A DNA stretch of 64,000 nucleotides. It comes from Rodentibacter trehalosifermentans (GTDB lineage Bacteria > Pseudomonadota > Gammaproteobacteria > Enterobacterales > Pasteurellaceae). The stretch's first letter is position 1, and each line of letters begins with the position of its first letter. This document shows positions 1 to 14,129 of this stretch, piece after piece. Position numbers and translations under genes: made by a program. The DNA is taken from positions 1 through 64,000 of the forward strand of contig NZ_MLHL01000021.1 of the NCBI RefSeq assembly GCF_002000545.1, written 5' to 3'. The notes beneath the pieces were generated by a model. That model did not search any database. It was not told the origin of the DNA and was given only the letters and a program-made list of their open reading frames with translations.

Positions 1-681
1 GTCAGCCCCTTTATTTTTAATCAATACTCGACAGGGTGCTCCATCTGTATTCTCTATTGCGATCGGGATCATTAATGCTTCAATTTCTGAGCTGGTAATG
101 CTTTTAGTGTTACAGAGATATTCCACTAATGTCACACCTTTTATTAATAGATGATGATGTGTCACATGTTTGCTTAACGGTTTTTCCATTGTATTTGTTA
201 ACCAACCTCGAATAGGATAATCTTGTGGAAAATCAAAAGCGATAATTTCAATTTGTTGAGATGCCAAATAAGCAGCACCGTCATCTGTAATATAGGGGGC
301 ATTCCCCCAAAACTCTTGAGAGCTATAGCTATAATGAGTATCCCAGCATGTTTTAAAAATAAATTTTTTATATTTTTGCTGATTAGGCCAAATAGATTTA
401 AGAACCTCTGCTGTAACTGCAAAGTTATCAGTGATTCTGTTTGATAAATCTAAAACATGAAAGTCACCAATAAATATTTCAGGCGCAATATCTAATATAT
501 TATAGGCACCTTTCTGTATATGGCTTAATGCATCCATATGTGTAAAAGCATGACAAGAAACTTGTAGCTGTGTTGCTTCAAATAAATCTCCATTATCAAA
601 ATTACCTTTTTTTTCGACCGCACTTTTCCAACGAATATGGTTAGTTGAAATTGGCATAGATAAATCAATCCATTTATTCAT
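1..681 (-). CDS. Cyclase-family metal-dependent hydrolase, C-terminus cut by window edge
   Basis: The reading frame runs open from an ATG at 681 to the left edge, giving 227 residues and no stop. The N-terminal third carries the cyclase/kynurenine-formamidase family metal motif: His44, Phe-Thr-His48, Met-Asp50 and His54 in a CHAFTHMDALSH stretch. That family (PF04199 type) hydrolyses amides or lactone-like rings with a divalent metal. It starts 10 bases after the stop of the TRAP permease dctM1, so it looks like the next gene of the same long operon; the operon therefore continues beyond the window. An uptake signal lies at 617-625 inside the coding region. The substrate is unknown; by context it should open or trim a sugar-acid derivative. 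Family call fairly sure, function inferred. Confidence 0.75.
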   Translation of the reverse strand, partial: MNKWIDLSMPISTNHIRWKSAVEKKGNFDNGDLFEATQLQVSCHAFTHMDALSHIQKGAYNILDIAPEIFIGDFHVLDLSNRITDNFAVTAEVLKSIWPNQQKYKKFIFKTCWDTHYSYSSQEFWGNAPYITDDGAAYLASQQIEIIAFDFPQDYPIRGWLTNTMEKPLSKHVTHHHLLIKGVTLVEYLCNTKSITSSEIEALMIPIAIENTDGAPCRVLIKNKGAD

Positions 682-691
682 TATTTAGCTC

Positions 692-1984
692 CTATGCAAA
701 AAATAGATTCGGCAAAAACGTACTAAATTCCGGAACAATAATTAACAAAATTAATAGAGCAAAGAGGGCTAACAAATATGGAAGACTGGCTTTCAGTACT
801 TTCATAGGTTCGCATTCGGCTATATTTGCTGACAAAAATATTAGATAACCTACAGGTGGCGTAACCAAACCTATCATTAAATTTAAAATAATTACTAAAC
901 CAAAATGAATAGGATCAATGCCAAACTGACTAACAATCGGCATAAAAACGGGAACTAAAATTGTTAATGCTGCGGTAGGATCCATCACCATACCAATGAA
1001 CAATACGATGATATTTATCAATATCAGCGCTTCGAGGGGGTGATCACAAATTGAAGAAATCCATGCTGCGACCTGGTGACTAATTTGTAAACGAGCAATT
1101 ATCCAAGCAAAGATAGATGACGCCCCCACAATCAACATGACAGTAACCGTTCCTTTTAGAGACGAGATTAGAGCTTTTTTCAATCGCTCAATACTGAGTT
1201 CTTTATAAATAAAAGTTCCGACTAAATAAGCATATACTACTGATACAGCTCCTGCTTCAGTTGCTGTAAATACACCAGAAATAATGCCATAAAGAATAAT
1301 AATAGGACAAAGCAATGCCCAAACTGCATCTTTTGCACTATCTTTAACTTCTTTAAGATTGAACTCTACAGATTTATTGCCATATTTATATATTTTACTC
1401 AGAATTAATGTCACTAAAATCAATATCAGTGCAATCATAATGCCCGGAATAATTCCTGACATAAACATTTTTCCGACCGAAACACCTGCTCCAGCCAAAG
1501 CTGCAAATACAATCATAGGAACACTTGGAGGGATAATAGGCCCAATAATTGAGGCGGATTGTGTCAGGGCGGCAGCAAATGGTGCGGGATATCCATTCTT
1601 TTTCATTTCGGGGATTAAAGAACTACCAATAGCAGCCGTCGATGCAACAGCAGACCCACTAATAGAACCAAAAAATAAACTAGAGAAGATATTGATATAT
1701 GCTAATGACCCCTTCCAACGTCCAATTAATGAGGTAACAAAGCGGATAATTCTGGAAGTAATACCTCCTACGCTCATTAACTCTCCAGCTAAGAAAAAGA
1801 AAGCTAATGCTTGTAAAGCGTTCGTATCTAATCCTTGCATAACTTGCTGTGCAACAATAGTTACCGGCACATAAGGCAAGAACATAAATAAAGTGACAAT
1901 AGATGCAAAAATAATGCTGTAGAATAGTGGTAATCCCAAAACAGTCAGAATAAACATGATACCAAGTAATACAATAAATGACAT
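692..1984 (-). CDS. dctM: TRAP transporter large permease DctM (system 1)
   Basis: A 430-residue hydrophobic protein with about 12 membrane segments and the glycine/proline-rich loops of the TRAP DctM subunit (for example IGPIIPPSVPMI and MDPTAALTILVP). This is the ion-coupled translocation channel of a tripartite ATP-independent periplasmic transporter in the inner membrane. Its ATG overlaps the stop of dctQ1 by one base (TAATG), which implies translational coupling. It is the usual length for the family. It sits in the long catabolic operon between dctQ1 and the cyclase gene. The substrate cannot be read from this subunit; context suggests a sugar acid or a related hydroxy acid. Confidence 0.93.
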   Translation of the reverse strand: MSFIVLLGIMFILTVLGLPLFYSIIFASIVTLFMFLPYVPVTIVAQQVMQGLDTNALQALAFFFLAGELMSVGGITSRIIRFVTSLIGRWKGSLAYINIFSSLFFGSISGSAVASTAAIGSSLIPEMKKNGYPAPFAAALTQSASIIGPIIPPSVPMIVFAALAGAGVSVGKMFMSGIIPGIMIALILILVTLILSKIYKYGNKSVEFNLKEVKDSAKDAVWALLCPIIILYGIISGVFTATEAGAVSVVYAYLVGTFIYKELSIERLKKALISSLKGTVTVMLIVGASSIFAWIIARLQISHQVAAWISSICDHPLEALILINIIVLFIGMVMDPTAALTILVPVFMPIVSQFGIDPIHFGLVIILNLMIGLVTPPVGYLIFLSANIAECEPMKVLKASLPYLLALFALLILLIIVPEFSTFLPNLFFA

Positions 1985-2460
1985 TATAACTCCCTCACTT
2001 TTCTCGTTTTAGCTAAAGATATAAATGCAATGACTACTCTTACCATTTCAAGAATTAGACAAAGGATAAATGGAACATATATCCATGAAATAGATATTTT
2101 AAAGGCTGAATAGTAGCTATTTATATTCATTTCATAGAGCTTAATCCCACCTTTTACTAATAAAAATAAGCAAATTAGCATAACAATATATAAAACCGAT
2201 GATAACAGCCAGCCGTATTTGAATCGCTCAAATATCATTATTCTCAATAATGGAACCTGTATTTGAGCAGTTGTCAAAATTCCAAATAGAATCATACAGG
2301 TATAGCTAAAACGTAAAAACTCCTCTGCCCATGGGAAAGATATATTAACGATATACCTTGTAATAACTTGAATGAATGTCATAACAACAATAATAAGAAA
2401 AAAGAGACATCCTAATGATAAAAATGTCTTACTAATAAATTTTTCATAATTATCAACCAT
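1984..2460 (-). CDS. dctQ: TRAP transporter small permease DctQ (system 1)
   Basis: A 158-residue protein with four hydrophobic segments and the family motif WAEEFLRF after the second segment, typical of DctQ, the small membrane subunit that pairs with DctM. It begins 34 bases after dctP1 and its stop overlaps the dctM1 start. A strong ribosome binding site (AAGGAGGC) lies just upstream of its ATG. Together the three genes encode a complete transporter. Nothing is truncated. Confidence 0.9.
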   Translation of the reverse strand: MVDNYEKFISKTFLSLGCLFFLIIVVMTFIQVITRYIVNISFPWAEEFLRFSYTCMILFGILTTAQIQVPLLRIMIFERFKYGWLLSSVLYIVMLICLFLLVKGGIKLYEMNINSYYSAFKISISWIYVPFILCLILEMVRVVIAFISLAKTRKVREL

Positions 2461-2494: not shown

Positions 2495-3472
2495 TTATTT
2501 GAGATCAATAACTTTATTTAGAACATTGTTTCCAAATTTCTTAGCGTAATCATCCCAAGCTTTTTTTGCTCCTATTTGAAATGAAGATATATCTGGATTT
2601 TCCTCAATCTCCATACCTTGTTCTTTTAATTTTCCAAGATAAATTTTATTCTCTTCTATATTAAGTTTTTTCTCTAACTCAGCACCTTCTTTTGCAGCCT
2701 GTAAAAGAATATCCTGATCTTCTTTGTCCATATAATTAAAACGATCTAAATTCATAGCCATAGGCGCTGCTGTATAAGCATGATTTGTTAAAGATAAATA
2801 TTTCTGCACTTCTTGCAAATTATTATTATAAATATGGTGAACAGGGTTTTCTTGTCCATCAATTACACCTGTTTTTAAAGAAAAATAAACTTCATTGAAC
2901 GGCATAGGTGTTGGATTTACGCCCCATTCTTTAAATGCCGCAATATGAGCGGGGTTTGGTGTAGTCCGTAATTTCAAACCAGATAAATCAGCAACTGTTT
3001 TAATCTGTTTCTTGCTGTTAGTGATATCTCTAAATCCAATTTCATAAAACGCCAATCCTTTCAATCCCGATTTTTCTAATGATTTTAGAAGAATATCACC
3101 AACTTCACCGCTTAATACTTTTTCTACATGAACTTCATTTCTAAATAAAAATGGTAAATCCAATAAATTAAGCTCTTCATTAAAAGTTGTGTAATAAGGA
3201 TTACCGACAACAACAATATCAATAGTTCCCATTCTAGTTCCATCGATTTGTGTGCCTGAAGGTCCTAGTTCACTGTTCGGATGTAGTTTGATAGTAATTC
3301 GACCATCAGAGAGTTCAGCCACTCGTTTAGCCATAAATTCAGTTGCCTTAGTCACTGTATCATTTGGTGAACCATAGTGACTGAGTGCTAAAGTATGTGT
3401 TCCAGCCGAAAGTACTGAACCTGAAACAACTGAAAATAAAATAGCTGTAGAAATAACATTTATTTTTTTCAT
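2495..3472 (-). CDS. dctP: TRAP transporter periplasmic solute-binding protein DctP (system 1)
   Basis: A 325-residue secreted protein with a signal peptide of about 23 residues (Lys-Lys start, hydrophobic core, likely cut after LSA). It carries the DctP-family landmarks: GFRDITN near residue 146, KLRTTPNP with the probable carboxylate-binding Arg169, and PTPMPFNEVYFSLKTGVIDG near 187-206. The protein captures an organic anion in the periplasm and delivers it to DctQM. It lies 54 bases after the RpiB-like gene in the same direction. It shares the PTP-PF-EV and TGVIDGQENP motifs with the second DctP at 12967-13959, so the two are paralogues, but the sequences differ widely elsewhere and may bind different ligands. 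Confidence 0.93.
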   Translation of the reverse strand: MKKINVISTAILFSVVSGSVLSAGTHTLALSHYGSPNDTVTKATEFMAKRVAELSDGRITIKLHPNSELGPSGTQIDGTRMGTIDIVVVGNPYYTTFNEELNLLDLPFLFRNEVHVEKVLSGEVGDILLKSLEKSGLKGLAFYEIGFRDITNSKKQIKTVADLSGLKLRTTPNPAHIAAFKEWGVNPTPMPFNEVYFSLKTGVIDGQENPVHHIYNNNLQEVQKYLSLTNHAYTAAPMAMNLDRFNYMDKEDQDILLQAAKEGAELEKKLNIEENKIYLGKLKEQGMEIEENPDISSFQIGAKKAWDDYAKKFGNNVLNKVIDLK

Positions 3473-3526: not shown

Positions 3527-3979
3527 TCAAATATTGTGATACTTAGCATCAATTATGTTAATTTTCTCAACTTTAGGTGTAGAACCACCTCCTGAAAATT
3601 CTGAATCAAGCCAAACTTTAAGTAATGATTTTGCAAGCTCAACCCCTATGACTCGCTCCCCGAAACAGATAATTTGTGCATCATTGCTTTTTCTTGCCCT
3701 CTCAGCTGAAAAAACATCATGACATACGGCAGCTCTTACTCCTGGAATCTTATTAGCTGTAATGGCCATTCCAATTCCTGTTCCACAAGTTAAAATAGCT
3801 CGCTCATATTTGCCTTCAGAAACTGCTAAAGCTACTTTTTCAGCAATATCTGGATATAACACTACTGAGCCTTCATCTGCACCAAAATCATCATATTCAA
3901 TACCTAGATACTCTAGATATTTTATTAACTCAATCTTAAGACGATATGCAGCCTCATCACACCCTATTGCAATTTTCAT
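3527..3979 (-). CDS. RpiB/LacAB-family sugar-phosphate isomerase
   Basis: A 150-residue protein with the RpiB fold signature. The catalytic cysteine is Cys65 in ILTCGTGIGM, followed by NKIPGVRAA and the SNDAQIICFGERV stretch. The family interconverts aldose and ketose phosphates (ribose-5-phosphate, allose-6-phosphate, galactose-6-phosphate, and in tetritol pathways D-erythrulose-4-phosphate). The usual N-terminal Cys-Asp-His-Ala-Gly motif reads CDEAA here, so the common His is Glu9, which argues against a plain ribose-5-phosphate isomerase. The gene lies 23 bases after the SorC regulator and before TRAP system 1. In context with the DhaK/DhaL kinase it could act on a tetrulose phosphate; that is inference. 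Confidence 0.85.
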   Translation of the reverse strand: MKIAIGCDEAAYRLKIELIKYLEYLGIEYDDFGADEGSVVLYPDIAEKVALAVSEGKYERAILTCGTGIGMAITANKIPGVRAAVCHDVFSAERARKSNDAQIICFGERVIGVELAKSLLKVWLDSEFSGGGSTPKVEKINIIDAKYHNI

Positions 3980-4002: not shown

Positions 4003-4956
4003 CTACTCTTTTGCTAAATTTAAGATTATGTTAATGTTACTAGCACTCGTTGCTATTACATCAATAATGCCTGTGCGCAAAGCACCAAGTATTGCCATTG
4101 CTTTCGTATTTTCAGAAGCAATACCAATAACACAAGGGATCGCTTTTAAATCTTCTAAGCTTAACCCAATTACTCTGTTATTCATTACAGTATCAACAGG
4201 TTCACCCTGAATATTAAAAAAGCCATATCCAGCAATATCACCGACAACTCCCAAATTTCTTTTAGCTTCAGTTACTTCTTTAGCAGTAAACCATCCTAGT
4301 CTAACCATGTAGCTATCTTCATTCATATCTCCAATACCCACTAAAGCAATATCTGCTTTACGAGCTCTATCTAGTGTTTCTTTAATAACTCCATTACTCA
4401 TAAAAATATCTCTAAAATCTTTATTTTCTAAATATGCTGGAGCATATAAAGTTTCATTCATTCCATTAAATTTATTTGCTAGATTTCTACAAATATTATC
4501 CGCATCTACAGGATCTCCAATATGTTGAACTCCTCCAATACCACAAATAAATTTACATTTTTTCTCTGATGGTATTCCTACGTATTCTCCTATTGCAGCG
4601 ACGTTCCGTCCTTGTCCGACGGCTACTGTCATACCATCTTTTAAAATATTTGAAAGATATGAACTCACTAAAGAGGCGACCTGTTTTCTTTGTTCTTTTT
4701 CATTATGTTCATCTATTGCAATTAAAGCGCGTTGAATACCAAATACTTCTATTAACCGTTGCTCTAACTGAGATGTAAAAACGGGATGATATTTAACATT
4801 TATTTCTACTACACCTTCTTGTCTTGCTTTTTTTAATAAACGACCTACTTTAATTCGAGAAATATTAAACTTTCTAGCAATATCTTCTTGAGTAAGTTCA
4901 TGCTCATAATATGCAATAGCAATTTCTGTTAATAAATTACTTTCCTTCAAGTTCAT
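4003..4956 (-). CDS. SorC/DeoR-type sugar-binding transcriptional regulator
   Basis: A 317-residue protein with an N-terminal helix-turn-helix (about residues 12-50, LTQEDIARKFNISRIKVGRLLKK in two adjoining helices) and the SorC-family C-terminal effector domain related to phosphosugar isomerase folds (GMTVAVGQGRN near 110, ADIALVGIGD near 200, GEPVD near 245). These regulators respond to a phosphorylated sugar, usually by losing DNA binding. The gene is embedded in the operon, 16 bases after the TIM-barrel gene, so it would regulate itself. A candidate operator is the inverted repeat at 10832-10853 upstream of the first gene. The effector is probably a phosphorylated intermediate of the pathway. 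Confidence 0.88.
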   Translation of the reverse strand: MNLKESNLLTEIAIAYYEHELTQEDIARKFNISRIKVGRLLKKARQEGVVEINVKYHPVFTSQLEQRLIEVFGIQRALIAIDEHNEKEQRKQVASLVSSYLSNILKDGMTVAVGQGRNVAAIGEYVGIPSEKKCKFICGIGGVQHIGDPVDADNICRNLANKFNGMNETLYAPAYLENKDFRDIFMSNGVIKETLDRARKADIALVGIGDMNEDSYMVRLGWFTAKEVTEAKRNLGVVGDIAGYGFFNIQGEPVDTVMNNRVIGLSLEDLKAIPCVIGIASENTKAMAILGALRTGIIDVIATSASNINIILNLAKE

Positions 4957-4972
4957 AATTAACCTCTTTTAA

Positions 4973-5809
4973 TTATAAAGATTCAATATATTTTTTTGAT
5001 TTTATTAGAGTGTCTTCAATAAGACTTAAAGGAACTTCCTTATCATATTTTTTCGGCATAGAATCAAGCTCTCTATAAATTTTCAAGGGGATTTCTAAAC
5101 TACTTGGTATACCTTTATCTTTTAATTTTAAAAGAATATCCTTATACTTTATCAATCCATCATCTCCTATAGATATAAATTCGAATTTATTATCCGAAAT
5201 CTTAACATCCTTAATATGAAAATATCCTGAGTAATCTAATGCAGTAAAAGATTGAGATAATACATCTAAGTCTTTTTTATAAGTTACCATATTACCTGGA
5301 TCAAAATTTATTGAATAAATATCATCTCCTAATTCATTAATTAGGTATAGTCCTTCCTCTATAGTAATAAATGCGTTGAAATTATAATCACCACCATTTT
5401 CTAAACAAAGAATACAACCTGTTTCTTCTAGTATGGGTCTTAATAATCTTAAATTATTAATCATTTTAAATTTATTTTCTAATTTGGTTGTACAAACATT
5501 TATATATTTAGCTCCAATTAAACTGGCAAAATAAATTCTAGGAATAAAAATGTCAACAAACCCATCAACAGAAAGATCCATAGTACATCCGAGAGCATTT
5601 GTATCTAATCCATATTTTACTTTAAGAGCATTGATAGTATTTGCATTATCAACACTAAATAAACCTTGGTGTAAATTTCCTATATACCCTTGGTTATATG
5701 CTAATTCAAAATATTTAAAGCCGCACTTTCTAATTGAACTAAAAGTCGTATCTAAATCATATCCATCATAGATAGATGTATTAACAGATAAATTTGTTAG
5801 ATTAGCCAT
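4973..5809 (-). CDS. Xylose-isomerase-like TIM-barrel enzyme (sugar phosphate isomerase/epimerase family)
   Basis: A 278-residue protein of the AP-endonuclease-2/xylose-isomerase-like TIM-barrel family. Probable metal ligands can be seen at the ends of the barrel strands: Glu137 (CLENGGD), Asp170 (NFDPGN), His198 (YFHIKDV) and Glu239 (SLEIPL). Relatives isomerise or epimerise keto sugars and acids; some decarboxylate oxo-acids (3-oxo-isoapionate decarboxylase is of this fold). I chose the ATG at 5809, which has a GGGAG ribosome site five bases away; an upstream GTG at 5821 in the same frame is less likely. Gaps to the neighbours are 27 and 16 bases. The reaction is unknown. Confidence 0.82.
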   Translation of the reverse strand: MANLTNLSVNTSIYDGYDLDTTFSSIRKCGFKYFELAYNQGYIGNLHQGLFSVDNANTINALKVKYGLDTNALGCTMDLSVDGFVDIFIPRIYFASLIGAKYINVCTTKLENKFKMINNLRLLRPILEETGCILCLENGGDYNFNAFITIEEGLYLINELGDDIYSINFDPGNMVTYKKDLDVLSQSFTALDYSGYFHIKDVKISDNKFEFISIGDDGLIKYKDILLKLKDKGIPSSLEIPLKIYRELDSMPKKYDKEVPLSLIEDTLIKSKKYIESL

Positions 5810-5836: not shown

Positions 5837-6757
5837 CTAAATATCAATTTTGTAATACTTTTTAGCATTTGCAAAAAACATTTTATGTTGTTCATCATAA
5901 CTATATTCTTTAACTGCCTCTTTAAACCCAGTAAAAATAGTTTCTAACTCTCCACATAAACTATCTACTGGAAAATTACTGGCAAACATAGCACGTTCTA
6001 TGCCAAATATTTTAACTGTCTCTTGTATAATCCATCGGTTATCTTCAATATCCCACCGCTTTTCGGGTAAACCAATACCTGAAATTTTCACAACAACATT
6101 AGGAATATCTGATAATTGGCTCATTGCTTTATGCCAAGCAGCCAGCCCTTCTCGAGAGCGATCTGACGGTAACCCAGTATGATTTAAAATAATGAGCGTA
6201 TTTGGAAAATCTAAAGCCAGTTGCTTCGCCTCATGTAAATTCCACCAAGGCGTTTGCAAATCAAAATTTAAATTAAATTTTTCTAATAACTCATAGCCAC
6301 TACGCCATTTGCTATCGCTCATCAAGGTTCTTACACCTTTCTGAACTTCTTGTGGAGATAATGCTCCCGCCGGTTTATGACGAACACTTCTTACTAATGG
6401 GAATGCTGATTGCGCTCTCAGTACAGGTTCAACGTCATCTGCTTGTAGCCATGCCTGAGCAACAACCGCATTAGGCATTCCATATTTTTCTTCAATTGTA
6501 TGAATATAAGCTGTTTCTCCCATAGGATCTTGAGGATCCCATTCTGCATCAACATAAACTGTTGCAATAACATTATGCTTAGGAGTTGCATCTTTTAAGT
6601 AATCAGGTGGTAAATACTCTTGTTTGATGGATGTATAATCACCATATCTAAATGGAATCAATACACCAGGAGCCAACCACGGATGCGGATTGATTTGCGG
6701 TTGCCAAAAGTGCTGATGTGCATCAATCATCGGACCATCATATAAGTTATATTCCAT
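5837..6757 (-). CDS. COG3618 amidohydrolase, probable sugar lactonase
   Basis: A 306-residue member of the amidohydrolase-2 family, which includes L-fuconolactonase, L-rhamnonolactonase and pyrone-dicarboxylate lactonase. The opening metal motif is IDAHQHFW with His14 and His16; RHKPAG (around 126-131) and LNHTG (His193) follow. The last motif reads FASNFPVD, with Asn261 where many relatives have Asp in FGSDWP. The expected reaction is hydrolysis of a sugar lactone to the free acid in the cytoplasm. It is preceded by the MFS permease gene (15-base gap), which fits an imported lactone or acid. Family is secure, substrate unknown. Confidence 0.85.
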   Translation of the reverse strand: MEYNLYDGPMIDAHQHFWQPQINPHPWLAPGVLIPFRYGDYTSIKQEYLPPDYLKDATPKHNVIATVYVDAEWDPQDPMGETAYIHTIEEKYGMPNAVVAQAWLQADDVEPVLRAQSAFPLVRSVRHKPAGALSPQEVQKGVRTLMSDSKWRSGYELLEKFNLNFDLQTPWWNLHEAKQLALDFPNTLIILNHTGLPSDRSREGLAAWHKAMSQLSDIPNVVVKISGIGLPEKRWDIEDNRWIIQETVKIFGIERAMFASNFPVDSLCGELETIFTGFKEAVKEYSYDEQHKMFFANAKKYYKIDI

Positions 6758-6772
6758 ACATTTCCATCCTTA

Positions 6773-8044
6773 TTACTTATTTTGTTTACTTAACTGAATA
6801 CTTAACGTGCCCAAAATATATACTATGGAACACCCTGCAAAGAAGAATAGTACATTATCGTAGTTATCTGTTTTTTGTAGAATAAAACCAACTAAAATCG
6901 GTACAATAATTCCCCCTAAACTACCAGCCATATTCATAATACCGCCAACAAGACCCACTTTATTCTTTGGTGCAAGTAGAGCTGGAAAACTCCAATACAA
7001 ACTGCCCCACATTAAGAAAAAAGCAGCAATAGAAAGTACTGCGATAGCAATGACTGGGTCATTCATATGTGGCAGGAGAGAAAATGCGACTAATGTACTG
7101 ATTCCCGAAATAGTCAAGACACCTTTAATTGCGATACGCTGAGTAACGCCCCATTTGACTAATGAATCAGAGAAAAAACCTCCACACAATGAACCCAAAG
7201 AACCAAATAAGAAAATAATAAATGTCGCATTTCCCACACCTTTAATATCAAATCCTCTGACTTGTGCTAAATAACTTGGTCCCCAAGTGAGCAACCCAAA
7301 GAACATCATTGCCCAAGCAGCACGACCAAACAAAATAGCGATTAATGAAATTTTTGAAACGCCTATACTTTTAGAAACATCTTCTTTTATGACCGCACTT
7401 TCTGTATTACTTACTGTTTCAGCTTTGATAATTTTTAATTCTTCTTCATTCACATTTTTATGTTCTTGTGGTGTATCACGTAAATATCGCCAAGTGACAA
7501 CGCCTAATAACATAGTAATAATCCCAATAATAGCGAATACTATGCGCCAAGATCCGATAGCGGCAATCATATAAGCAATAATAATGCCGCCAAGCGCTGC
7601 ACCTAAAGGTCCTCCACAATCCATAATAACCGCACCACGCCCACGTTCTTTAGAAGATAACCATGTTGAATTTAATTTTCCCCCAGCCGGGAAAAGAGGA
7701 GCTTCTCCAGCCCCAAGCATAAAGCGCGACAATAAAAGCGACACCCCACCAGTTGAAAACGCCGCAAGAGTTTGAAATACCCCCCACAATACTGTAGAAC
7801 CGGTAATCATCTTACGAGGTCCATACTTATCAATTAACCACCCTCCCGGTACTTGTAAAAGAGCATAGGCCCAGAAGAAACTACTTAAAATAATACCTTG
7901 CATTGTAGGAGACAACTCGAATTCTTTAGCAATAGTAGGCATTGCGATAGAGAGCGATATTCGGTCAATCAAGTTAACCATAACCAGTAAAAAGATAATA
8001 CCAAATACAAACCAACGAACATTAGACGCTTTATTTTGTTTCAT
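6773..8044 (-). CDS. MFS permease, anion:cation symporter (sugar-acid) type
   Basis: A 423-residue membrane protein with about 12 hydrophobic segments. The first half contains NLIDRISLSIAMP, GGWLIDKYGPRK and LGAGEAPLFPAG, the pattern of the anion:cation symporter branch of the major facilitator family that imports galactonate, glucarate and related hexose or tetronate acids. The central loop is charged (about residues 190-225) and carries an uptake signal at 7392-7400. It lies 53 bases after dhaL, with a hairpin in the gap, and 15 bases before the lactonase. It provides a third uptake route in this locus besides two TRAP systems. Confidence 0.88.
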   Translation of the reverse strand: MKQNKASNVRWFVFGIIFLLVMVNLIDRISLSIAMPTIAKEFELSPTMQGIILSSFFWAYALLQVPGGWLIDKYGPRKMITGSTVLWGVFQTLAAFSTGGVSLLLSRFMLGAGEAPLFPAGGKLNSTWLSSKERGRGAVIMDCGGPLGAALGGIIIAYMIAAIGSWRIVFAIIGIITMLLGVVTWRYLRDTPQEHKNVNEEELKIIKAETVSNTESAVIKEDVSKSIGVSKISLIAILFGRAAWAMMFFGLLTWGPSYLAQVRGFDIKGVGNATFIIFLFGSLGSLCGGFFSDSLVKWGVTQRIAIKGVLTISGISTLVAFSLLPHMNDPVIAIAVLSIAAFFLMWGSLYWSFPALLAPKNKVGLVGGIMNMAGSLGGIIVPILVGFILQKTDNYDNVLFFFAGCSIVYILGTLSIQLSKQNK

Positions 8045-8097: not shown

Positions 8098-8730
8098 TTA
8101 TTTGTTATTTTTTATAAACTCTGACATATATTTAAGAATAAATGACATAGAAACAGCACCTGGATCCACATGCCCCAAAGAGCGCTCTCCTAGACTTTTT
8201 GCTCGACCAAAAACAGCTATTTGGTCTTTCGTACTTTCGGCTCCTTGCTCTGCCGCTATTGCGATTAGGTCTACAGCATCCACCAGACTTTCATTTTGTA
8301 CAGCAATAGCTTTTGATGTTGCTGCTGCTAATGCATCCATCATTGTTTTATCGCCTGGTTTCGCTCCTCCTCGGTTAAATACTCCCTCTTTACCCGCAGA
8401 TAAAAATTGGGTCAATATCTTAGTGTCAAAAGTTTCTGTACCCGCGATAGCTTTTCCACCAGCTCGGAACAATGTACCGAAAATAGCACCAGAAGCACCT
8501 CCCATACTAGACATCATTTTCGTACCAACGGTTACAAATAATTCGCCAATATCTTTAGGCTGAAAGGTCTCTGTCTTTAATAAATCTCTTACTGCAGCAA
8601 AACCACGTTGCATACCTAAACCATGATCGCCATCTCCTATTTTCAAATCCAGCTCAGTTAAAACAGGCTCACTTTCAACCATTTTTTCCGCGATATAAAG
8701 CAATAAGTTTTTAGTTTCTGATACATTCAT
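8098..8730 (-). CDS. dhaL: DhaL-like nucleotide-binding subunit of a dihydroxyacetone-kinase-type sugar kinase
   Basis: A 210-residue DhaL-family protein. The Mg-nucleotide site LDLKIGDGDHGLGM lies at about residues 28-40, followed by the glycine-rich SSMGGASGAIFGTLF and RGGAKPGDKTMMDAL motifs. In bacteria DhaL holds ADP or ATP and phosphorylates a short keto sugar bound to DhaK. I place the start at the ATG at 8730, one base after the dhaK stop at 8732-8734; a longer frame reaching 8790 would overlap dhaK deeply and lacks a ribosome site. No DhaM (PTS donor) gene is present, so the phosphate donor is open. Its substrate here is probably not dihydroxyacetone itself, given the neighbours. Confidence 0.9.
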   Translation of the reverse strand: MNVSETKNLLLYIAEKMVESEPVLTELDLKIGDGDHGLGMQRGFAAVRDLLKTETFQPKDIGELFVTVGTKMMSSMGGASGAIFGTLFRAGGKAIAGTETFDTKILTQFLSAGKEGVFNRGGAKPGDKTMMDALAAATSKAIAVQNESLVDAVDLIAIAAEQGAESTKDQIAVFGRAKSLGERSLGHVDPGAVSMSFILKYMSEFIKNNK

Positions 8731-8731
8731 A

Positions 8732-9736
8732 CTATTTTCTCCACGCAAAACTGTCACAAGGCATATCATAAAGTTTTTGCAATTCATCATCTAAACGGAA
8801 TACGGTAACTGAATATCCTGCCATTTCTTGTGAAGTGCAGTATCCACCGATTAACGTGTCATAAACCTGTATGTTACGAGCATTTAATTCCTGATGAACT
8901 TTCCGGTTTGCAATTAATAATTCGGTATATGTAGAGCTTCCTAAATTATTGATTGTTACGCATACCTTATCTCCTGCTTGCAAATTGATATCGGCACATA
9001 AATTTTCAATAATCTCTCCGTTTATTTCATCTGCCGATGTCATTTTCTGTCTTCTAACACCCGGTTCTCCATGAATGCCCATACCCAATTCAAGTTCATC
9101 ATCAGCCAATTCAAAATTGAATTTCCCCGTCTGAGGAATCGAACAAGCACCTAAAGCGACTCCCATTGTCCGTGTGTTAAAATTAGCTTTTGCAGTAACC
9201 TCATACAATTCTTCTAAATCATATCCGGACTCAGCTGCTGCACCCGCAATTTTTAAAACATACATATCTCCAGCGACCCCTCGACGATCATTCATTTTTG
9301 ATAATGGTGCGGCTGAGATATCATCAGTTACACGAACAGTTTTAACCTGAATACCTTCCTCTTCTAATAATTCTGCTGCAATATCAAAATTCATATTATC
9401 ACCAGCATAATTACCATAAACAAAGAGCACTCCTTTGCCTTTTTGTGCGGCTTTAGTTGTTTCAATAATGATATCCGGAGATGGAGAAGCAAATATTTCA
9501 CCCAATGCTGCAGCATCAGCTAAACCTTTTCCTACATAACCAGCAAACATTGGTTCGTGACCGCTTCCTCCACCAGTTACAACAATGACCCTATCAGATT
9601 GGATATCACTACAAATTACCCCACTGTATCCTTCGACTTTTGTTAATTTTCCGTTGCAGGCGTGCAATAAACCTTCTAACTGTTCAAGTGGAACATCACT
9701 TGGGTTATTCAGTAATTTTTTGGGTTTTCTACTCAT
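8732..9736 (-). CDS. dhaK: DhaK-like substrate-binding subunit of a dihydroxyacetone-kinase-type sugar kinase
   Basis: A 334-residue DhaK-family protein with all key motifs: VVTGGGSGHEP with His60, YAGDNMNF with Asp113, and MGIHGEPG with His222, the residue that in this family forms a covalent hemiaminal with the keto group of the substrate. It should therefore phosphorylate a C3 or C4 ketose such as dihydroxyacetone or erythrulose. The gene starts 11 bases after the PdxA-like gene and is coupled to dhaL. In known tetritol pathways DhaK-type kinases act on D- or L-erythrulose; that assignment here is an inference from the RpiB and TIM-barrel neighbours. Confidence 0.92.
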   Translation of the reverse strand: MSRKPKKLLNNPSDVPLEQLEGLLHACNGKLTKVEGYSGVICSDIQSDRVIVVTGGGSGHEPMFAGYVGKGLADAAALGEIFASPSPDIIIETTKAAQKGKGVLFVYGNYAGDNMNFDIAAELLEEEGIQVKTVRVTDDISAAPLSKMNDRRGVAGDMYVLKIAGAAAESGYDLEELYEVTAKANFNTRTMGVALGACSIPQTGKFNFELADDELELGMGIHGEPGVRRQKMTSADEINGEIIENLCADINLQAGDKVCVTINNLGSSTYTELLIANRKVHQELNARNIQVYDTLIGGYCTSQEMAGYSVTVFRLDDELQKLYDMPCDSFAWRK

Positions 9737-9747
9737 AGCTTAGTCTC

Positions 9748-10761
9748 CTATTTTGAAGATAAAACGCCTGTTCCCATACGAACAGCAATATTAAAAGCAG
9801 CTTCAAATGCCGTTGGAATCGCCACATTTTTGCCATACAAATCAAATGCAGTACCATGATTAGCGGTAGTGATAGGAATAGGGATACCTCCTTGAACCGT
9901 AACACCTCGTTCGAAACCAAGTAATTTAAGAGCTGTCGAAAACTGATCATGATACATAGAAAGCACACCATCAATTTTTAGACGTTCAACTTCGCGCATT
10001 GTTGTATCTCCTGGAAATGGACCATAAACATCAATCCCATACTCACGAGCCTTCTCTATCCCTGGGGCAATAATAGTAATTTCTTCATCACCAAATACCC
10101 CACCTTCCCCTCCATGCGGATTTAAAGCTTGAACTGCTATTTTAGGATTTTGAACTCCAGCTTGAGATAAAGCTTTGTGTAGAAGACGGACTCCGTCGAC
10201 GATTCCTTGAACAGATAAATTAGGCACAATATCTTTAAATGGAATGTGAGAAGTTACACGCCCAGCCCAAATATTATCAACAACGTTTAACTCACAAACA
10301 AATCCATGATAATTTGTTTGATCTGCGAACCAATGTAATTCATCTCTGTATTGCAAACCACCTTTATGCATTGCTTGTTTATTAAGTGGGGCAAAGCAAA
10401 TAGATTGAATATACCCCGCTTGAGCAAAATCGACCGCCCGCTTGAGAGTTTCTAATATATACACCCCACTTTGAGCTGTTGCTTTACCATATTCAAAAGG
10501 CAATGGATGGGAGCCCTTATGTGTAATTAAAGCAGGTATTCCATCCTTAAAAGAATAATCTGGTAACTGTTCTTCTGTAATTTGCTCATATTTAAAGTTA
10601 ATTTGAGCGATATCCATACCTCTGTGCAATTCATCAGGATCTGCAATCAGTAAAACATTTGCTTTTTGTCTTTGTTCATTTTGAACTAATAATTTAGCAA
10701 CTAATTCTGGTCCAACACCAGCTGGATCTCCCAAAACCATTGCAACTGTAGGTTTCTGCAT
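9748..10761 (-). CDS. pdxA2: PdxA2-like 4-phospho-hydroxyacid dehydrogenase
   Basis: A 337-residue protein of the PdxA family of NAD-dependent, metal-dependent oxidative decarboxylases. It opens with VAMVLGDPAGVGPELV, and the three metal-binding histidines are visible: His172 (SHIPF), His216 (NPHGGEGG) and His271 (MYHDQF). The ending GGIPIPITTANHGTAFD is standard. The PdxA2 branch oxidises 4-phospho-D-erythronate or -threonate to dihydroxyacetone phosphate and CO2 in sugar-acid breakdown; true PdxA works in vitamin B6 synthesis. The catabolic neighbours favour PdxA2. The ATG at 10761 follows a GAGG ribosome site; an upstream in-frame start at 10821 has none. It is the first gene of the long operon. 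Confidence 0.88.
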   Translation of the reverse strand: MQKPTVAMVLGDPAGVGPELVAKLLVQNEQRQKANVLLIADPDELHRGMDIAQINFKYEQITEEQLPDYSFKDGIPALITHKGSHPLPFEYGKATAQSGVYILETLKRAVDFAQAGYIQSICFAPLNKQAMHKGGLQYRDELHWFADQTNYHGFVCELNVVDNIWAGRVTSHIPFKDIVPNLSVQGIVDGVRLLHKALSQAGVQNPKIAVQALNPHGGEGGVFGDEEITIIAPGIEKAREYGIDVYGPFPGDTTMREVERLKIDGVLSMYHDQFSTALKLLGFERGVTVQGGIPIPITTANHGTAFDLYGKNVAIPTAFEAAFNIAVRMGTGVLSSK

Positions 10762-10831: not shown

Positions 10832-10853
10832 TTTGTTCTAGAATTAGAACAAA
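10832..10853. promoter_or_regulatory. Inverted repeat, candidate SorC-family operator
   Basis: TTTGTTCTA (10832-10840) and TAGAACAAA (10845-10853) are perfect inverted arms around a four-base spacer. A further half-site AGAACAA is at 10815-10821. They lie between the CRP box and the pdxA2 start, about 70-90 bases upstream of the ATG, where a repressor would block transcription. Assignment to the operon's own SorC regulator is inference. Confidence 0.6.
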
Positions 10854-10869: not shown

Positions 10870-10885
10870 AGTGATATTCATCACA
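10870..10885. promoter_or_regulatory. CRP-like box, proximal, upstream of pdxA2
   Basis: AGTGA-N6-TCACA matches the CRP consensus TGTGA-N6-TCACA at nine of ten fixed positions. It lies about 110 bases upstream of the pdxA2 ATG, next to the candidate repressor operator. Confidence 0.6.
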
Positions 10886-10918: not shown

Positions 10919-10934
10919 TGTGAGGTATATCACA
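10919..10934. promoter_or_regulatory. Perfect CRP box, distal, upstream of pdxA2
   Basis: TGTGA-GGTATA-TCACA is a perfect match to the CRP consensus. It is 49 bases from the proximal site. The pair suggests cAMP-CRP activation of the catabolic operon when preferred sugars are absent. The rest of 10762-11096 holds no gene. Confidence 0.75.
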
Positions 10935-11096: not shown

Positions 11097-12377
11097 TTAA
11101 TACACAAAATTAACCATTCCTATAGTCAATGAAGGAATATAAGTAACAGCAAGCAGTGTTATAAGTAAGACTAAAATAAACCATAAATTATCCTTAGTAA
11201 CACTCCAAATATCTTTTTTAGCGATTGAAGAAGCTGTAATCAATACGCTCGCTACAGGTGGTGTCTGCTGTCCTACGGCAATATTAAGCGTCAAAATTAT
11301 ACCGAAATGTATAGGGTCGATCCCTAATTGAATAATCAGTGGCATCACAATAGGAACAACCAAAATGATTGCTGCCGCACCATGTAAAAACATACCAATA
11401 ATAAACAGCATCAGATTGAGCATCATTAGTACAATATATTTATTATCCGATACACCCAAAATAGCTGATGCCATATGTTGCGGAACTTCTTGTTCAGTTA
11501 AAAACAATCCTAAAACAGCTGAAGTTGCAACTAAAAGCATTACTACTGAAGTTCCATTTACACTTTCAACCAACGCTTTAAATAAAGATGAAATACTCAA
11601 TTCTTTATAGATAAAAAAACCTATAAGAAATGCCAACAATACTGCCAAACCAGCTGCTTCAGTTGCCGTAGTAAAGCCAGAGATAATGCCACCTAAAATG
11701 ATAGCAGGTAATGTCAATGCCCAAAATGCTTCTTTGAAGGAAGAGCATAATTTACGTAAACTAAAAGATTCTTCTCTAGGTAAATTATATTTAACTGCAT
11801 AATAATAACAAACCACAAACATACCTAAAGAGGCTATTCCTCCAGCAGCTAATCCAGCAATAAATAACTTAGATATAGATACATCAGCCATAGCACCATA
11901 AATAATCATTGGTAATGATGGGGGAATAATAACGGCCAATGAAGCAGAAGAGGATGTGACTGCTGCTGAAAAACTACCACTATATCCACGTTTTTTCATT
12001 GCCGGAATCAGAATTGATCCTAAAGCCGCTACATCTGCTACTGATGAACCGGATATTTCAGCAAAAATCATTGATACACCAACATTTACCATTGCCAGCC
12101 CACCCCGAACAAATCCAATAAGAGCATTTACAAAGTTAATTAAACGAACTGAAATTCCTCCTGTGTTCATTAATGAACCAGCTAAAATAAAAAGAGGAAT
12201 TGCTAATAACGAAAAATTAGATGCGCCATCAAACACAGATAACGCCACATTATATACAGCACCAAAATTGTTCGTAATTAACATTCCTACCAACGATACT
12301 ACACCAATAGCAACTGCAATAGGTACATTAATCATTACTAACAGAATCAAACTAAGCAGTACGATAAGTGCTATCAT
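11097..12377 (-). CDS. dctM: TRAP transporter large permease DctM (system 2)
   Basis: A 426-residue, very hydrophobic protein with about 12 membrane segments and DctM landmarks (VIIPPSLPMIIYGAMAD, GFTTATEAAG, VGQQTPPVASVL). It forms the transport channel of the second TRAP system. Its ATG overlaps the dctQ2 stop by four bases (ATGA), so the two are translationally coupled. A hairpin after the stop ends the three-gene operon. The protein is clearly related to DctM1 at 692-1984 but is not a recent copy. Confidence 0.93.
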   Translation of the reverse strand: MIALIVLLSLILLVMINVPIAVAIGVVSLVGMLITNNFGAVYNVALSVFDGASNFSLLAIPLFILAGSLMNTGGISVRLINFVNALIGFVRGGLAMVNVGVSMIFAEISGSSVADVAALGSILIPAMKKRGYSGSFSAAVTSSSASLAVIIPPSLPMIIYGAMADVSISKLFIAGLAAGGIASLGMFVVCYYYAVKYNLPREESFSLRKLCSSFKEAFWALTLPAIILGGIISGFTTATEAAGLAVLLAFLIGFFIYKELSISSLFKALVESVNGTSVVMLLVATSAVLGLFLTEQEVPQHMASAILGVSDNKYIVLMMLNLMLFIIGMFLHGAAAIILVVPIVMPLIIQLGIDPIHFGIILTLNIAVGQQTPPVASVLITASSIAKKDIWSVTKDNLWFILVLLITLLAVTYIPSLTIGMVNFVY

Positions 12378-12934
12378 GATAATTTCTCCTTAGCCATTTT
12401 AATATCAACACTATTGTTAACGTTACGTAAAGCTTGCTCTATTTCTTCATCATCTTGAGTTTTATTTTCTAAAATAGATTTAAATGCTTTTGGCATTGAA
12501 ATAATCTCTGCAATAATAAATAAAACACATCCAATTGGTAATGCAGATTGTGCCATTGCTTGAGTAATAAAACTTAAACTAGTCAAGGTTTCATCGCCAA
12601 ATATAGATAATACATAAAACCCAGCCCAAGCTAGAGTGATAAAGAAACTGATTACAATAATTTCATTTAAGAAAAAAATATATTTCTTAATATTGTACGG
12701 CATTGAAACAATAAGATTACCAAATCCCATATGATTACGATTTAAGGCACATAAAGCAGCACCATAAAAGGTTAACCACGCAAGCAAAATTGATGATACT
12801 TCATCATACCAATATAACGATATTCCAATAAAACGAGAAAATATTGATGTTATAATAATGATAGTTAATACAGCTAATATTGTAGATGATATTATTGTTA
12901 ATATCTTTCTTACTAGATTAAATAATCTTTCCAT
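12374..12934 (-). CDS. dctQ: TRAP transporter small permease DctQ (system 2)
   Basis: A 186-residue protein with four hydrophobic segments and the DctQ-like stretch WYDEVSSILLAWLTFYGAA, followed by a charged C-terminal tail rich in Glu, Asp and Lys (about residues 150-186) that DctQ1 lacks. It is the small membrane subunit of the second TRAP system. It starts 32 bases after dctP2 with a GGAGGG ribosome site. It overlaps dctM2 by four bases. Confidence 0.9.
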   Translation of the reverse strand: MERLFNLVRKILTIISSTILAVLTIIIITSIFSRFIGISLYWYDEVSSILLAWLTFYGAALCALNRNHMGFGNLIVSMPYNIKKYIFFLNEIIVISFFITLAWAGFYVLSIFGDETLTSLSFITQAMAQSALPIGCVLFIIAEIISMPKAFKSILENKTQDDEEIEQALRNVNNSVDIKMAKEKLS

Positions 12935-12966: not shown

Positions 12967-13959
12967 CTATGGTTTAATCACTTCTTGTGTCTTATCTAAT
13001 AATACTTTTCCATTGGGAACTGATGATATAAACTCCTGATAAATAGGCTTACTTGCCTCAATAAAGGATGCCGTATCAACCTCATTTAACAGCATTCCAC
13101 TAGCAATTAATTTTTTAATCAATTCTGTATCTGATTTCTCAGCTTCTTTGTATGCCCAACTTTGAGTTTCTTTTGAAGATAATTCAATAATATTTTTTAC
13201 CTCCTGAGGCAATTTTTTATATGAATTAACTCCTACGGTTAAGTATGAGGGAGAATATACATGATTAGTAATACTTAAATATTTTTGAACTTCTTGTAAT
13301 TTAGCAGCATAAATATTGGTTAGTGGATTCTCTTGCCCATCAATGACACCGGTTCTTAAACCAATAAATACATCACCAAATGGCAATGGTGTCGGATTAG
13401 CTCCCCATTCTTTAAACATTTTTAAACGCCACGAACTATTTGGAGTACGAATTTTTAATCCTTTTAAATCTTCTGGTTTAGTTATAGGTCTAACATTATT
13501 TGTTATATTCCTAAAACCGTTTTCCCATAGACCAATTACCTTATACCCTTTTTTTTCTGCTTCAGGTGCAATATATGGATAAAAAACTTGTTCCTCTATT
13601 TCAATTAATTGCCGACGATTAGTAATTAAAAACGGTAATTCAAATATAGCCATTTGTGGAATATTGGTTGCAAGTGTAGAAGATAACAATGCAATATCAA
13701 TTGTGCCTAATTTTAATTTTTGTTGTGTATCTTTATCAGATCCTAATTGCCCAGAACCAAAAAATTTCAATTGATAATCTAACTTAGCCGCAGATAATTT
13801 TTCATTGGTTATATCGACAAAATGTTTAGTTGTATTATATTGTAGAGATCCTACACTTGCAGAAGTTGATACAATTAAGTCTTTAGCTTGTAAGGAAAAA
13901 CTTATAATAAATAGAATGATAGTAGTAATACTGAGTTTTTTGCATAAATGAAATTTCAT
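12967..13959 (-). CDS. dctP: TRAP transporter periplasmic solute-binding protein DctP (system 2)
   Basis: A 330-residue secreted protein with a signal peptide of about 25 residues ending in LQA. DctP landmarks are ENGFRNITNN near 146-155, GLKIRTPN with the likely carboxylate-binding Arg171, and PTPLPFGDVFIGLRTGVIDG near 189-208. It binds an organic anion for the DctQM pair. It is first in its operon and is preceded by two perfect CRP boxes at 14073 and 14114. It is a distant paralogue of DctP1. The ligand is unknown; both systems may import related acids, or the acid and its precursor. Confidence 0.93.
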   Translation of the reverse strand: MKFHLCKKLSITTIILFIISFSLQAKDLIVSTSASVGSLQYNTTKHFVDITNEKLSAAKLDYQLKFFGSGQLGSDKDTQQKLKLGTIDIALLSSTLATNIPQMAIFELPFLITNRRQLIEIEEQVFYPYIAPEAEKKGYKVIGLWENGFRNITNNVRPITKPEDLKGLKIRTPNSSWRLKMFKEWGANPTPLPFGDVFIGLRTGVIDGQENPLTNIYAAKLQEVQKYLSITNHVYSPSYLTVGVNSYKKLPQEVKNIIELSSKETQSWAYKEAEKSDTELIKKLIASGMLLNEVDTASFIEASKPIYQEFISSVPNGKVLLDKTQEVIKP

Positions 13960-14072: not shown

Positions 14073-14088
14073 TGTGATATTTATCACA
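14073..14088. promoter_or_regulatory. Perfect CRP box 1 upstream of dctP2
   Basis: TGTGA-TATTTA-TCACA is an exact consensus CRP site, centred about 120 bases upstream of the dctP2 ATG. It is the proximal member of a tandem pair. Confidence 0.75.
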
Positions 14089-14113: not shown

Positions 14114-14129
14114 TGTGATATACATCACA
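14114..14129. promoter_or_regulatory. Perfect CRP box 2 upstream of dctP2
   Basis: TGTGA-TATACA-TCACA is an exact consensus CRP site 41 bases (about four helical turns) from box 1, so both sites face nearly the same side of the helix. Catabolite activation of the TRAP operon is the expected effect. Confidence 0.75.

Follow-up and report, generated by a model that had tools for sequence, protein, structure and literature searches.

In the D-threonate/erythronate pathway, the PdxA-fold enzyme PdxA2 works with the DUF1537 kinase DtnK, and the dihydroxyacetone kinase subunits DhaK and DhaL of the phosphotransferase system (PTS) work with DhaM. The PdxA fold has also been described in the terephthalate dihydrodiol dehydrogenase TphB, which acts on an unphosphorylated substrate with decarboxylation. 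In the L-ascorbate pathway, reportedly the work of Stack et al. (2020, JACS; cited in PMC11066805), an amidohydrolase is said to open 2-carboxy-L-lyxonolactone and a PdxA-family enzyme to decarboxylate the product; this reaction is likewise said to be redox-neutral and to give L-lyxonate. A further related system is the lower module for L-erythrulose and D-apionate, which we take to consist of a kinase and of TPI-like and RpiB-like isomerases leading to erythrose-4-phosphate (presumably those named LerK, LerI and EryI). Here, a group of genes of Rodentibacter trehalosifermentans is analysed in which a PdxA homologue is encoded next to DhaK and DhaL. The window, that is, the whole stretch of DNA of 64,000 nucleotides, comprises the first 64 kb of the 79-kb contig NZ_MLHL01000021.1. 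These genes probably belong to a single linear catabolic operon under CRP control, in which a free sugar acid would be converted to a ketotetrose and phosphorylated last, to yield erythrose-4-phosphate.

The three genes lie on the minus strand and are coupled end to end, as an earlier note on this DNA had pointed out: the pdxA-like gene (9748..10761) is separated by 11 bp from dhaK (8732..9736), and this by 1 bp from dhaL (8098..8730). The matches of their products to Pfam (PF04166, 276 bits; PF02733 or Dak1, 389 bits; PF02734 or Dak2, 174 bits) are all so far above the cut-off that their identification cannot be due to chance, and DhaL also matches TIGR02365 above its cut-off. The products would act as an NAD-dependent beta-hydroxyacid dehydrogenase/decarboxylase, the proposed first enzyme of the pathway, and as the ketose-binding and nucleotide-binding subunits of a putative erythrulose kinase. 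The operon gene pdxA was found in 17 of 140 Pasteurellaceae genomes, corresponding to 11 of 43 genera, and was absent from the 14 further genomes searched in the same genus.

The earlier note identified the PdxA homologue as PdxA2, with phosphorylated hydroxyacids as substrates, and on both counts the data point elsewhere. The protein reaches 244 bits against the NCBIfam model of PdxA (cut-off 290) and 202 bits against that of D-threonate-4-phosphate dehydrogenase (cut-off 583). A profile search over 398 genomes of the phylum yielded a set of matches of at least 389 bits, followed by a gap down to 292, and this set constitutes a clade of 46 sequences with a support of 100/100 in a maximum-likelihood tree. 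All 46 members retain the three metal histidines and the lysine. In all of them, a D-E pair is aligned to the G-H that precedes T137 of Escherichia coli PdxA, so that H136-T137 is replaced by a Glu and a hydrophobic or His residue, and, in the same numbering, N283 is replaced by Thr and R292 by a hydrophobic residue (aliphatic or aromatic). In the window protein this signature reads D140-E141/R168/T288/I297, and R168 is likewise found in the 46 sequences. The H-T pair and the Arg are kept in PdxA, in the D-threonate-type enzymes and in the homologues linked to DUF1537, two of which show Thr in place of N283. They are also lost in two PdxA homologues encoded beside ring-hydroxylating (aromatic) dioxygenases, and the substrates of such homologues bear no phosphate. 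In E. coli PdxA, H136 has been reported to hydrogen-bond the substrate (PMC10471632). The family can thus be read as one in which the H-T/R set would mark a phosphate-type site, and because these residues are lost, the simplest reading is that the members of the clade act on an unphosphorylated substrate.

An AlphaFold2 (AF2) model of the window protein superimposes on E. coli PdxA (1ps6) with a Z score of 33.6 and a root-mean-square deviation of 2.6 over 312 aligned residues. The fold and the metal histidines are shared with the D-threonate/erythronate pathway, from which the operon differs in its lack of a DUF1537 partner, in the lost substrate-binding residues and in the clade of its PdxA. 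According to the scores, the residues and the tree, an identity as canonical PdxA or as DtnD was rejected. TphB, which resembles the proposed enzyme in fold, unphosphorylated substrate and decarboxylation, differs in its aromatic substrate and shows 23-24% identity in a structure alignment.

With regard to the kinase, residues H60, D113 and H222 of DhaK are intact, the last of them correctly cited in the earlier note, and their conservation indicates that the substrate should be a carbonyl compound. The best NCBIfam match of this subunit is PRK14479, a family of fused dihydroxyacetone kinases. DhaK and DhaL share their folds and the catalytic histidine with the PTS-dependent enzyme, but no gene for DhaM is found in the operon or, in a search with TIGR02364, anywhere in the genome, where the two matches to PF03610 correspond to a mannose-type EIIAB and a short EIIA, and where the Dak1 gene of the window is the only one. 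DhaM is absent from 10 of the 17 operon genomes, including this one and one assembled as a single contig. In the three DhaM-bearing genomes looked at, DhaM accompanies a separate DhaKL about 37-41% identical to that of the operon. ATP is probably the donor for the operon kinase, as judged from these comparisons. In Gilliamella (L034:17171-20055), a PTS-type DhaK-DhaL-DhaM encoded beside a triose-phosphate isomerase (TPI) takes the place of the operon kinase; in Erwinia and Cedecea this place is held by a fused DhaKL, also beside TPI, and all three retain the PdxA and a TIM barrel protein. These replacements indicate that the type of kinase is exchangeable and that a ketose kinase is always there; from the case of Gilliamella, the phosphoryl donor of the pathway also appears to be exchangeable.

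A DUF1537 gene was likewise sought, and none was found in this operon or in the related ones. The only one in this genome lies on another contig (C36:36749-37420), within an otn cluster that encodes a DeoR regulator, a threonate-dehydrogenase-like protein, OtnK, OtnC and OtnI, a gene set that matches the four-step L-threonate pathway (PMC12540250). As this kinase sits in its own complete cluster, it was rejected as partner of the window PdxA. The earlier note had considered that a DUF1537 gene or dhaM could lie beyond the edge of the window. Base 1 is also the end of the contig, and the left end of the operon was read from relatives, whose longer contigs carry instead a second TPI gene (TPI2) and, in some of them, tal and tkt, so that a hidden gene of either kind was discarded. 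That note's description of a two-subunit DhaKL acting on a ketone, with neither DhaM nor a DUF1537 partner, thus stands, and only its premise of a PdxA specific for phosphorylated acids falls. From this premise it had derived a dilemma between a kinase of new specificity and two branches sharing the operon. The conflict arises only if PdxA is assumed to need phosphate, and it dissolves if PdxA takes a free acid first and DhaKL phosphorylates the resulting ketose.

The step between both enzymes is assigned to a xylose-isomerase-like TIM barrel protein (4973..5809, minus strand; PF01261), a candidate 3-oxo-acid decarboxylase or isomerase giving the ketose. Its gene is present in the 18 related neighbourhoods examined. 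The protein shows invariant residues E137, D170 and H198 and a conserved E239, and its AF2 model (pLDDT 93.4) has Art22 and UlaE as nearest solved folds, with Z scores of about 25. A phmmer search against the PDB gave nothing useful, and a profile search retrieved weak relatives alone, UlaE among them. The combination of PdxA, TIM barrel and a DhaKL is kept across Gamma- and Alphaproteobacteria, even where the kinase has been replaced. In rhizobia, a recurrent order is PdxA, tripartite transporter, TIM barrel and fused DhaKL, and Sinorhizobium, Shinella and Ensifer retain the combination of PdxA, TIM barrel and fused DhaKL. In Sinorhizobium fredii, TIM barrel, DhaK and DhaL are accompanied by a threonate-dehydrogenase-like enzyme instead of PdxA, an arrangement which places TIM barrel and kinase downstream of an oxidation step.

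The tetrose-phosphate end of the pathway is suggested by two isomerases. TPI2 is found in 16 of the 17 operon genomes, with 68-100% identity to the copy of Cricetibacter, and in Pasteurella multocida the order of genes is cyclase, tpiA, tal and tkt. The window encodes an isomerase of the RpiB/LacA family (3527..3979, minus strand), proposed to act on D-erythrulose-4-phosphate, which scores 161 bits against the model of D-erythrulose-4-phosphate isomerase, below its cut-off of 240. TPI2 and this RpiB are 42-49% identical to an adjacent pair at the oiaX locus of Rhizobium etli, where a neighbour is annotated as 3-oxo-isoapionate-4-phosphate decarboxylase. The window operon resembles the L-erythrulose/D-apionate module in its DhaK-family kinase and probably in this pair, and differs from it in having neither OiaX nor a DUF1537 kinase and in its entry through a PdxA-clade enzyme. 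In the window RpiB, as in those of R. etli and of a Listeria module, Ser occupies the position of the histidine in the RpiB 'EHN' motif. This change may reflect specificity for tetrose phosphates, since no furanose ring has to be opened in a 4-phosphotetrose.

Related combinations of these genes occur elsewhere. Modules with DhaKL(M), TPI, RpiB and transketolase, and without PdxA, were found on a Klebsiella plasmid (L090), together with a TIM barrel of the same family as that of the window, a 2-hydroxyacid dehydrogenase and a major facilitator superfamily (MFS) protein, and in Listeria innocua (L166), along with DhaM2, a short-chain dehydrogenase/reductase and a fructose-6-phosphate aldolase; a module of this kind seems to be a general intake for tetrulose phosphates. 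In Necropsobacter (L071:2412-3503) and Lonepinella (L072:1012-2097), the second TPI of the operon carries a fused PTS EIIB domain (PF00367), an architecture already covered by the NCBIfam model PRK14905. Just past the operon, Necropsobacter also encodes another MFS of the type found in the operon, a 310-aa sugar-phosphate isomerase-like open reading frame (ORF), a 2-hydroxyacid dehydrogenase and a transaldolase (L071:3575-7743), which are perhaps an added branch. Cricetibacter holds a second RpiB gene (L022:5470-5922), upstream of the second set of transporter genes described below, whose product is 80% identical to the window RpiB. In addition, one 260-kb record of P. multocida deposited as a plasmid (L081, NZ_CP113523.1) carries ileS, ribF, murJ, rpsT and tkt, and has the appearance of a mislabelled piece of the chromosome.

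In the proposed pathway, carriers of the tripartite ATP-independent periplasmic (TRAP) and MFS types would take up a free sugar acid, or else its lactone for opening by an amidohydrolase. The PdxA-clade enzyme would use NAD+ to oxidise the 3-hydroxyl of the unphosphorylated C5/C6 acid, and a decarboxylation aided by the metal-dependent TIM barrel would give a ketotetrose, most likely L-erythrulose. DhaK-DhaL would then phosphorylate the ketose with ATP, not DhaM, as donor, and TPI2, expected beyond the contig end here, and the RpiB-type isomerase would turn the tetrulose phosphate into D-erythrose-4-phosphate for use by transaldolase and transketolase.

The origin of the acid is suggested by the neighbourhoods of the clade. 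A member from Sphingomonas is encoded beside cytochrome b561, gluconolactonase, YncE and a rhamnonate-type dehydratase, a combination that we take to be that of the L-ascorbate pathway, and many other members adjoin the same lyxonate/rhamnonate-type dehydratase. The PdxA proteins encoded beside YncE, gluconolactonase and the lyxonate-type dehydratase (L082, L142, L150) fall inside the 46-member clade. A locus of Caballeronia combines this dehydratase with homologues of the window MFS permease (53% identical), amidohydrolase (48%) and PdxA (46%). MFS homologues with 53-56% identity are located next to a clade PdxA and an amidohydrolase in Caballeronia and Methylobacterium, and the closest homologues of the amidohydrolase (48-60%), the closest plasmid-borne ones included, adjoin clade PdxA genes. 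Since clade, amidohydrolase and MFS point in this direction, a breakdown product of ascorbate, either 2-carboxy-L-lyxonate or an L-pentonate, is the most likely starting acid, although its chances seem to fall somewhat short of even; its L-series fits L-erythrulose.

The operon thus resembles the L-ascorbate pathway in its same-clade PdxA, its amidohydrolase and MFS homologues and its sugar-acid transport genes, but it lacks the lyxonate dehydratase, and its lower half consists of TIM barrel, DhaKL, TPI2 and RpiB. No homologue of that dehydratase was found in 12 of the 17 operon genomes, including this one, and the other five hold only matches of 28-36% identity. No ORF for a YncE propeller or a gluconolactonase was detected among the operon genes of the window or in the Pasteurellaceae loci compared, the rest of the genome not having been searched. 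Tentatively, and with less confidence than in the linear operon itself, the locus may represent an undescribed route, in which a PdxA-clade net oxidative decarboxylase acting on 2-carboxy-L-lyxonate or an L-pentonate and a xylose-isomerase-like decarboxylase would lead to L-erythrulose and, through a DhaM-free DhaKL, to erythrose-4-phosphate. The ascorbate pathway would then have a second and shorter lower half, found in animal-associated Pasteurellaceae.

Several points weigh against the proposed pathway. The data establish the content, order and conservation of the genes, the clade of PdxA and its lost phosphate-type residues, the ketose-type catalytic residues of DhaK and the lack of DhaM and of a DUF1537 partner; every substrate and enzyme activity is inferred, as are the direction of flux and the way in which PdxA and TIM barrel share the work. 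The net oxidation by the window PdxA is an assumption, given the redox-neutral reaction attributed to its counterpart in the ascorbate pathway, and the union of the window group with the dehydratase-linked group has a moderate support of 83/84 (92/91 for the nearest sisters). No sequence comparison marked the TIM barrel as a decarboxylase, and its fold comparison returned epimerases and isomerases at tied Z scores; it may be an EryC-like epimerase as well as an OiaC-like decarboxylase. Amidohydrolase and MFS are both present in 11 of 18 related loci and both absent in the other 7, which implies that a lactone is not the sole substrate and that the lactone branch is accessory. Finally, TPI2 is missing only from this draft, whose contig ends exactly where the gene should start, and the cyclase-family gene at that end has no established role in the pathway.

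Among the alternatives, the one that survives best applies the same chemistry to one carbon fewer: PdxA would oxidatively decarboxylate an unphosphorylated tetronate to dihydroxyacetone, the best-known substrate of DhaKL, and the kinase would deliver dihydroxyacetone phosphate to glycolysis. The TIM barrel-DhaKL genes of S. fredii, with a threonate-dehydrogenase-like enzyme and neither TPI2 nor RpiB nearby, agree with such a version. It is nevertheless unlikely, as it leaves the second TPI of 16 genomes, the tetrose-type RpiB and the tal and tkt of P. multocida unneeded, and an otn route for L-threonate already exists in this genome. Two branches within one operon are less probable still. PdxA would then act on a phosphorylated acid supplied by a kinase encoded elsewhere, such as OtnK, and DhaKL, TPI2 and RpiB would form a separate branch for erythrulose or dihydroxyacetone. 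A DUF1537 kinase does exist in the genome, and Klebsiella and Listeria have the DhaKL-TPI-RpiB module in the absence of PdxA, but the whole clade is devoid of phosphate-type residues, the DUF1537 gene belongs to its own cluster, and the association of PdxA, TIM barrel and a DhaKL persists across two classes of bacteria despite replacement of the kinase. Slightly weaker again is the proposal, based on clade membership and the shared amidohydrolase and MFS neighbours, that PdxA converts 2-carboxy-L-lyxonate to L-lyxonate without net oxidation, the product being handled elsewhere and DhaKL serving separately imported erythrulose, since the scarcity of the dehydratase leaves L-lyxonate without a recognised exit.

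The remaining genes of the putative linear operon complete a tightly packed run on the minus strand. Downstream of dhaL are encoded an MFS sugar-acid permease (6773..8044; TIGR00893-like), the amidohydrolase of the COG3618/lactonase type (5837..6757; PF04909, FuconLaconase-like), which is the proposed lactonase feeding PdxA, and, following the TIM barrel, a SorC/DeoR-type sugar-binding regulator of the operon (4003..4956; PF04198), whose gene was found at all 18 related loci. RpiB is followed by a first TRAP set, with the solute-binding protein DctP (2495..3472; PF03480 and TIGR00787, above cut-off), the small permease DctQ (1984..2460; an ORF between those of DctP and DctM) and the large permease DctM (692..1984; an ORF whose gene order is conserved in relatives). 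The run ends in a cyclase-family hydrolase (1..681; PF04199), truncated by the contig edge, whose Cricetibacter counterpart is 88% identical. Upstream of pdxA, the minus strand also encodes a second TRAP set, which has a promoter of its own and comprises DctP (12967..13959), adjacent to pdxA in several relatives, and the ORFs for DctQ (12374..12934) and DctM (11097..12377).

As for regulation, two CRP-type boxes precede pdxA, at 10870..10885 (minus strand) and 10919..10934 (no strand assigned), and two more, which are perfect palindromes, precede the second TRAP set (14073-14088 and 14114-14129). The motif TGTGA-N6-TCACW has eight matches in the window, seven of which correspond to these four promoter boxes, with 0.19 expected for the whole window. 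Tandem boxes of this type are found upstream of pdxA in most Pasteurellaceae copies of the operon, usually with a spacing of 49-50 bp in the relatives. The two palindromes suggest that the second TRAP set is co-regulated with the pdxA operon. Another palindrome upstream of pdxA (10832-10853) was considered as a SorC operator and rejected, as it is not conserved in relatives.

If the proposed pathway is true, it corrects the widespread automatic annotation of these genes as '4-hydroxythreonine-4-phosphate dehydrogenase' and 'dihydroxyacetone kinase', and the residue signature separates PdxA homologues specific for free acids from those specific for phosphorylated acids. The DhaM-free DhaKL would gain a concrete and testable substrate, and it would become clear how Pasteurellaceae that live with animals, P. 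multocida and Gallibacterium among them, could exploit a sugar acid from the host or its diet, probably one formed in the breakdown of vitamin C.

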